DNA of 64,000 nt, from the NCBI GenBank assembly GCA_024760905.1, contig CM045737.1:11648726-11712725 (forward strand), read 5' to 3'. The notes below the pieces were generated by a model. It worked only from the letters and a program-made list of their open reading frames with translations, was not told the origin of the DNA and searched no databases. The translations under genes were made by a program, and so were the position numbers. Below are positions 29,790-30,026 of this stretch, in pieces. How positions within the stretch are numbered: position 1 is the stretch's first letter; every line of letters starts with the position of its first letter. This stretch comes from Plotosus lineatus. Lineage: Eukaryota > Chordata > Actinopteri > Siluriformes > Plotosidae.

Positions 29790-30026
29790 GATTTTCTGAG
29801 TAGATCCTTCCGTAGGAGAGTGCTCAATACTTTTTGGTAGAGCAAATAAACAAAAATAAAAGGACAGGACAAAGACTTTCTATTGAAACTCCATTTATCA
29901 CTACAGATCTGTTTGATTCCTCTATAATCACCTGAAGAGAGAGGATGGTTTCACCACCCCTCGAAACAGATCTGTAGTGATAAATGGAGTTTCAATAGAA
30001 AGACTTTGTCCTGTCCTTTTATTTTT
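29790..30026. mobile_element. H element copy 1, left arm partly deleted
   Basis: Begins 'gattttctgagtagatcc', passes 'ggacaggacaaagactttc', and has a left arm cut short after 'ctacagatctgttt' (29901-29914). The complete right arm ends at 'tttgtcctgtccttttattt'. The right arm holds an apparently intact hammerhead ribozyme (next entry). On the minus strand the first 60 bp read [18 protein letters not shown], possibly a vestige of a parental protein. No reverse transcriptase is encoded. The hammerhead suggests kinship with Penelope-like elements or retrozymes. Confidence 0.75.
29927..29981 (+). ncRNA. Type I hammerhead ribozyme, complete core
   Basis: Stem I: ATCAC (29927-29931) pairs with GTGAT (29977-29981). 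Core box CTGAAGA is at 29932-29938, fitting the C-U-G-A-N-G-A rule. Stem II is the hairpin 29939-29962: GAGAGG with CCCCTC (one A.C mismatch), then TGGT with ACCA, loop TTC. GAA is at 29963-29965. Stem III is ACA/TGT with loop GATC. The cleavage triplet is GUA, with cleavage expected after A29976. All invariant core nucleotides are present. A three-base-pair stem III is typical of the minimal type I hammerheads of Penelope-like elements, which often act as dimers. Confidence 0.82.

Follow-up and report, generated by a model that had tools for sequence, protein, structure and literature searches.

The window, that is, the whole stretch of 64,000 nucleotides of Plotosus lineatus DNA analysed here, contains a genuine, full type I hammerhead motif of 55 nt, for which self-cleavage is predicted. 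It is located in an element of 240 bp (29789–30028), which is composed of two opposed pLTR arms without a reverse transcriptase (RT), and both arms run into microsatellite. The length of about 240 bp and the absence of RT inside it had been read correctly in a preliminary description of this DNA. The parts of the motif, the two arms and the other copies of the repeat in the window are as follows:

29927–29981, forward strand: complete type I hammerhead motif by the strict descriptor, with predicted cleavage at 29976/29977
29927–29931 and 29977–29981, forward strand: stem I, read from the letters
29932–29938, forward strand: core box CTGAAGA (CUGANGA), from the letters and the strict descriptor
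29939–29962, forward strand: stem II, an extended hairpin with one A-C mismatch, from the letters and the fold
29963–29965, forward strand: core GAA, from the letters and the strict descriptor
29966–29975, forward strand: stem III and its loop, ACAGATCTGT, a perfect 10-nt palindrome seen directly
29966–29968 and 29973–29975, forward strand: the pairs of stem III, with the loop GATC, read from the letters
29915–30028, forward strand: short pLTR arm, reference 1–114, followed by GTGTATATA repeats
29789–29914, reverse strand: opposed pLTR arm with tail, 5′-truncated, reference 50–175, without the 5′ half of the hammerhead
29789–29849, reverse strand: 61-nt tail; nearly the same sequence in the copy L085 continues into the reading frame of a Penelope-like element (PLE)
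29850–30028, no strand: 65-bp inverted repeat of 98% identity with a 49-nt centre (the two arms)
50489–50784, no strand: second head-to-head pLTR pair
50489–50662, reverse strand: tail arm of the second pair, with an intact hammerhead at 50597–50651
50683–50784, forward strand: short arm of the second pair
30870–31184, no strand: more diverged head-to-head pair, in which the strict hammerhead descriptor failed
30870–31042, reverse strand: tail arm of the diverged pair
31078–31184, forward strand: short arm of the diverged pair
55431–55541, forward strand: solo short pLTR arm, 94% identical, with a mutated core box

Hammerhead core and predicted folding

The hammerhead consensus was taken as the basis of the strict descriptor, which consists of a 5-bp stem I, CTGANGA, a stem II in which one mismatch is allowed, GAA, and a 3-bp stem III that opens with A15.1-U16.1 and is followed by H17. 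All that a type I hammerhead requires is present in the 55-nt stretch, namely CUGANGA, GAA, a UH cleavage site, three stems and an opening from stem I, and since A17 is located at 29976, the cut is predicted between 29976 and 29977. In the preliminary description, every invariant hammerhead position had been recognised; its letters and coordinates were right, and the strict descriptor agrees with them, while the assignment to type I and the cleavage triplet GUA are supported by both descriptor and simulation. The descriptor gave two matches in the 64-kb window, at 29927–29981 (forward strand) and 50597–50651 (reverse strand), which belong to one repeat family. When 25.6 Mb of sequence simulated by a first-order Markov model were searched, no match was found; a longer Markov simulation gave 21 matches in 2.79 Gb, corresponding to 0.00096 expected per window over both strands. 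A chance motif was rejected on the strength of the descriptor and the Markov simulation.

Rfam gave no hammerhead match at the gathering score over the window, and relaxing the limit to E 10 gave none either, whether over 1 kb, over 81 nt or for the solo copy L016. This miss is hard to weigh, because the search was run without a known PLE hammerhead as positive control; a curated covariance-model match, absent in Rfam, is not required for the motif. It had been stated beforehand that the lack of a covariance-model hit would speak against the ribozyme; formally this is the result obtained, and more weight is given here to the copies that carry RT and to the diverged relative described below.

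Minimal type I hammerheads in PLEs, thought to work as dimers, were reportedly described by Cervera and De la Pena in 2014. They are summarised in the available portion of PMC6155905 as having a short or missing helix III and lying in flanking repeats. The short helix III and the location in PLE flanking repeats are shared by the present motif, which differs in its stem III and loop forming a perfect palindrome and in that letter-perfect copies were counted for one genome. In the prediction for the 55-mer alone, a non-hammerhead fold is better by 3.0 kcal/mol, and the units of 114 and 175 nt show an equal gap of 3.0 kcal/mol against the hammerhead fold. Within the full insert of the window, a hairpin beats the hammerhead fold by 30 kcal/mol, so that the ribozyme of this copy is probably not active in the transcript of its own insert. 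Since ACAGATCTGT is palindromic, two copies could pair through a 10-bp joint stem III: the unconstrained two-strand fold leads to a double hammerhead in which the core letters are all unpaired (−37.4 versus 2 × −13.4 kcal/mol), and with the flanks included the gain of the dimer is −10.6. In these models, tandem or paired pLTR RNAs may be able to cleave. The 3-bp stem III and the likeness to Penelope-like elements and their dimers, pointed out in the preliminary description, are borne out by the descriptor, the predicted dimer fold and the diverged relative.

Reading frames between the same repeats

Judged from sequence, the repeat of the window is the pLTR of an RT-encoding PLE. First of all, a pattern search for tails without a following microsatellite gave 39 + 97 raw matches, some of them overlapping, and among the matches listed, 20 distinct places go on with the identical TCTACACCG. 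In 7 of the 20 places, among them L085, an RT match was located further downstream in the same orientation, and genome-wide there are at least 118 RT matches (110 of 302 RT candidates scored in both cases). DNA queries with the tail alone or with unit plus tail gave no matches, probably because the search skips words that are very common in the genome. In L089, all that follows a diverged RT match is a unit that has been partly rearranged.

In L085, the pLTR and the tail lead into a reading frame, followed by frames with LYRDDGL and with an EN-like piece, the coding part of this copy being split among several frames. The RT piece of L085 (372 aa, with LYRDDGL) has 2,772 homologues; RVT_1 was present in 2 of 8 homologues scanned and absent in the other 6, the best value, 2.1e-6 for P0155, which shares 69% identity with the piece of L085, being just under the curated cut-off. 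In the family of the EN piece (A3), GIY-YIG was found in 4 of 14 aligned members, with 2.6e-4 as the best value. The L085 pieces themselves have neither an RVT_1 nor a GIY-YIG Pfam match, the RT piece has no PDB match, and the profile–profile comparison with the other PLE of the genome is weak (probability 64.9 for RT and 4.3 for EN). Many of the listed homologues of the RT piece carry precomputed PF26215, which we take to be a PLE-associated domain.

At L085:115–558, one frame is open through the hammerhead into the PLE frame. Several solo tail arms inspected (for example, 50489–50662 of the window) have one extra T compared with L082 and L085, both of which are linked to an element body; the extra letter would throw these arms out of frame. 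The burst of solo copies may come from a subfamily in which the link to the frame is broken. In L081, from about 3550, a run of N follows a microsatellite beside a 5′-truncated tail copy.

In L086, L087 and L088, RT and EN are joined in one frame (RDDG and GLTE strings), with 686, 718 and 618 aa from stop to stop, respectively. The layout of L087 is as follows:

L087 499 to 326, reverse strand: inverted pLTR with tail
L087 502–2655: frame with RT and EN motifs, stop to stop
L087 2962–3078, forward strand: direct short pLTR
L087 434–488 (reverse strand) and 2973–3027 (forward strand): hammerheads

L088 is arranged like L087 (inverted pLTR with tail, frame, direct short pLTR), L086 consists of the frame and a 3′ pLTR, and L082 has two direct repeats and one inverted. 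pLTRs that flank the frame, often with one inverted, as in PLEs, are thus present in L087, L088 and L082, and a hammerhead is found in the pLTR, with a hammerhead core also in the diverged relative L091. The window element corresponds to the two arms of L087 minus the frame. Furthermore, the inverted arm of L087 runs past the pLTR into the apparent 3′ region of an upstream copy, and the first residues of the L087 frame are identical to a frame on the opposite strand next to the repeat of L014; this continuation beyond the pLTR is consistent with tandem templates. The view that an undescribed non-autonomous family is present, raised in the preliminary description, is not supported, since the same repeat adjoins RT/GIY-YIG-like frames in L085, L086, L087 and L088, and since the 240-bp element has the known insertion layout of PLEs, with head-to-head pLTRs of which one is tailed.

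The diverged relative L091 (JAAEPJ010000379.1) has 50% RT identity. The sequence at 3762, 128 nt beyond the last frame, is CTGACGA-GTGC-GTAA-GCAC-GAAAC, with just two more letters before the contig ends; such a core appeared in 13 of 400,000 shuffles of this stretch. The window-built model R1 did not detect the L091 core, which may be expected from the different stems and the missing 3′ half; among body-linked or fetched body loci, 8 of the 11 full-length matches of R1 are at the top score. L091 is a eukaryotic-looking head-to-head PLE under a bacterial MAG title, where it is probably host contamination. A scan of viral contigs gave no relative.

Copy ends, insertion and alternative accounts

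In the 1.33-Gb genome (30 contigs), 6,261 exact copies of the 55-mer were counted, 3,139 on the forward and 3,122 on the reverse strand, and the reversed pattern, used as a control over the whole genome, gave 0. Among the matches listed (start of C1), 19 pairs are less than 150 nt apart, and all are minus-then-plus, that is, head to head. For the ends of the arms, 40 places were scored out of 1,032 candidates, chosen by similarity to the window element; all 40 were kept, and nine loci duplicating others were excluded from the tallies of pairs as well as of arms. The query contained no tail, so that the end type of the opposed arm is unbiased, and a short right arm may be favoured.

It was found that 35 of the 40 head-to-head pairs consist of one short and one tail arm, the tail arm extending 61 nt beyond the end of the short one, while one pair is short plus short and four have another end. 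The optional 3′ tail on one of two inverted pLTRs, known from PLEs, is therefore seen in 35 of 40 pairs. No more than 38 nt separate the heads of the two arms in a pair, and the filler at the junction is frequently short and palindromic. As for the heads, 29 of the 35 short arms in short-plus-tail pairs begin at reference 1–9 (the reference starts at position 1 by construction), and so do 38 of 47 short arms in all, a tally in which L014, counted as a short arm, extends upstream into the element body. Tail arms begin at reference 1–8 in 12 of 38 cases, the others being scattered. No arm (0/90) begins at reference 61–65, around the cut site at 62/63.

Within the 35 short-plus-tail pairs, to which this comparison was confined, the two arms differ at 34 of 2,319 sites (0.0147 per site) versus 0.0207 between pairs, and 0 of 5,000 permutations were as low, as expected if both arms copy one source RNA. 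Among the arms spanning the hammerhead, 29 of 52 are letter-identical to the window. The rate of change is low in CTGAAGA (2 of 364 cells), and GAA changes at a higher rate than all other parts (5 of 156 cells, comprising four G-to-A changes at a CpG and one deletion); RT pieces differ by 2.3–3.6% among four body copies. These divergences do not prove selection on the hammerhead core.

An insertion mechanism can be compared with that of Poseidon_Ac (PAc), a PLE of Anolis carolinensis. According to the available portion of PMC11167929, RT of PAc starts at two internal sites near the junction of pLTR and frame, both target strands are extended, AT-rich DNA is preferred, and RNA uncut by the hammerhead is inserted; the hammerhead was not needed for insertion in vitro and cleaved only in the presence of protein. 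The present element shares with PAc the hammerhead at the pLTR–frame junction, the RT and GIY-YIG frame, the pLTR repeats, the two internal RT starts that define the tail, the AT-rich targets and the insertion of hammerhead-uncut RNA, and the two fixed 3′ ends found here fit the two start sites of PAc. In the same portion of that source, several differences are apparent: the frame of PAc starts at stem II, whereas no in-frame ATG was seen in the motif here; its optional tail is 30–40 bp long instead of 61 nt; and in vitro there is no apparent strand difference in the start site, whereas the arms of a pair mostly have unlike end types here.

It is considered quite probable that the hammerhead belongs to the pLTR of a PLE and that the 240-bp element is made of two head-to-head pLTRs, likely arising from two internal starts on uncleaved RNA with run-off at its 5′ end. 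By this mechanism, reverse transcriptase would start at two internal sites of uncleaved RNA, priming near the mRNA 5′ end on both nicked target strands in one event; the cDNA, just 114 or 175 nt long, would run off at the RNA 5′ end, so that short arms would begin where the RNA begins, and the two extended strands would be joined at their heads. A start site near the mRNA 5′ end would explain why the 5′ start is shared and also why there is an excess of small copies, which may be regarded as "strong-stop"-like products, and the longer RT-bearing copies would come from a tandem or read-through RNA template. The copies examined bear no mark of ribozyme cleavage at the starts of their arms; by prediction, the ribozyme would work chiefly in dimeric form, via the palindromic stem III, on tandem RNAs. 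In a wider form, which is proposed tentatively and given somewhat less than an even chance, "strong-stop" transposition would be a property of PLEs: two fixed starts 61 nt apart within the 5′ end repeat, one per nicked strand, followed by run-off and head-to-head joining, would produce thousands of tiny ribozyme copies, full copies would arise only from tandem RNAs with a second repeat, and these RNAs would be removed by the dimeric hammerhead acting as a switch. PLE transposition is poorly understood, and thousands of near-identical insertions are a readable record of ends; the origin of the head-to-head inserts and the role of the hammerhead thereby become testable by genome counts and by the published in vitro PLE system.

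Head-to-head arms could also be formed by self-priming, in which a strand folds back and copies itself, as proposed for the Penelope of Adineta vaga in the available portion of PMC3846280. The often palindromic filler at the junction suits this account, and so does the low difference within pairs, which follows equally from two copies of one source RNA. Self-priming predicts equal outer ends, and since 35 of 40 pairs join one short to one tail arm, it is disfavoured and regarded as rather unlikely. It is less likely still that the repeats are a retrozyme-like, purely non-autonomous ribozyme family moved in trans, as first suggested, even though most copies seem to lack RT (6,261 exact hammerheads versus at least 118 RT matches) and the extra T of several solo tail arms may point to a non-coding source copy from which many solos stem. 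A retrozyme is non-coding and has no RT-bearing copies, but here RT/EN frames lie between the same repeats, and in L085 the tail passes directly into the frame. In addition, the metazoan type I retrozymes of PMC7229834, in the portion available, share with the present repeat a type I hammerhead that needs dimers in vertebrates, but they are non-autonomous tandem repeats, whereas this is the repeat of an RT-encoding element and the copies seen are not tandem monomers of about 300 bp. An origin of solo pLTRs as remnants of full elements after recombination or deletion, suggested for several A. vaga solos in the same portion of PMC3846280, is very improbable here, because it does not predict a common 5′ start (29 of the 35 short arms of short-plus-tail pairs), a fixed pairing of end types (35/40) or identical hammerheads by the thousand. 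Finally, a chance look-alike in a palindromic DNA transposon (MITE), to which the long inverted repeat and the missing Rfam match might point, deserves practically no credence in view of 0.001 expected per window and of the hammerhead core at the corresponding place in a diverged relative, and a MITE was rejected on account of the RT/EN-linked copies between the same repeats.

The reading as inserted PLE repeats agrees with what has already been published, that is, hammerheads in PLEs (PMC6155905 and PMC7229834, as far as their available portions go) and solo and inverted pLTRs with an optional tail (PMC3846280, likewise). The A. vaga Penelope in the latter shares with the present element inverted head-to-head pLTRs, one of which may carry a tail, palindromes at the junction and solo pLTRs; it differs in its low copy number, compared with thousands here, and the available portion of the account does not contain the word hammerhead. 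In the portions consulted of the open-licence full-text literature, neither the rule of one short and one tail arm with counts, nor a run-off account of solo repeats, nor the hammerhead sequence found here and its palindromic stem III was met with.

A second Penelope-like element and other features

Long open frames of the window at 13500–16259, 26582–27858 and 35022–37548 (reverse strand) and at 50761–53225 (forward strand) look by eye like LINE endonuclease/reverse transcriptase. There are also two tRNA-like Rfam matches, possibly SINE heads, at 49769–49842 (forward strand, 38.6 bits) and 5353–5410 (reverse strand, 29.3 bits).

A second, different PLE is present in the genome (L050–L077 and L079, the last at C3:74884000–74893500), with RVT_1 and GIY-YIG in the one copy scanned, L059. 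As owner of the window repeat, this subtelomeric GIY-YIG PLE was rejected: 30 of its loci gave only BLAST words of 11–17 nt at E 1.5 or worse, R1 had no match in it up to E 10, and Rfam found no hammerhead in L079. Among the matches listed, its named homologues are teleost proteins. On C3 it has a tandem period of 6.25 kb, and of 37 GIY-YIG matches at least 30 are found no more than 70 kb from a contig end, one more on C12 being unplaced; endonuclease-bearing arrays of this PLE are likely located at fish chromosome ends.
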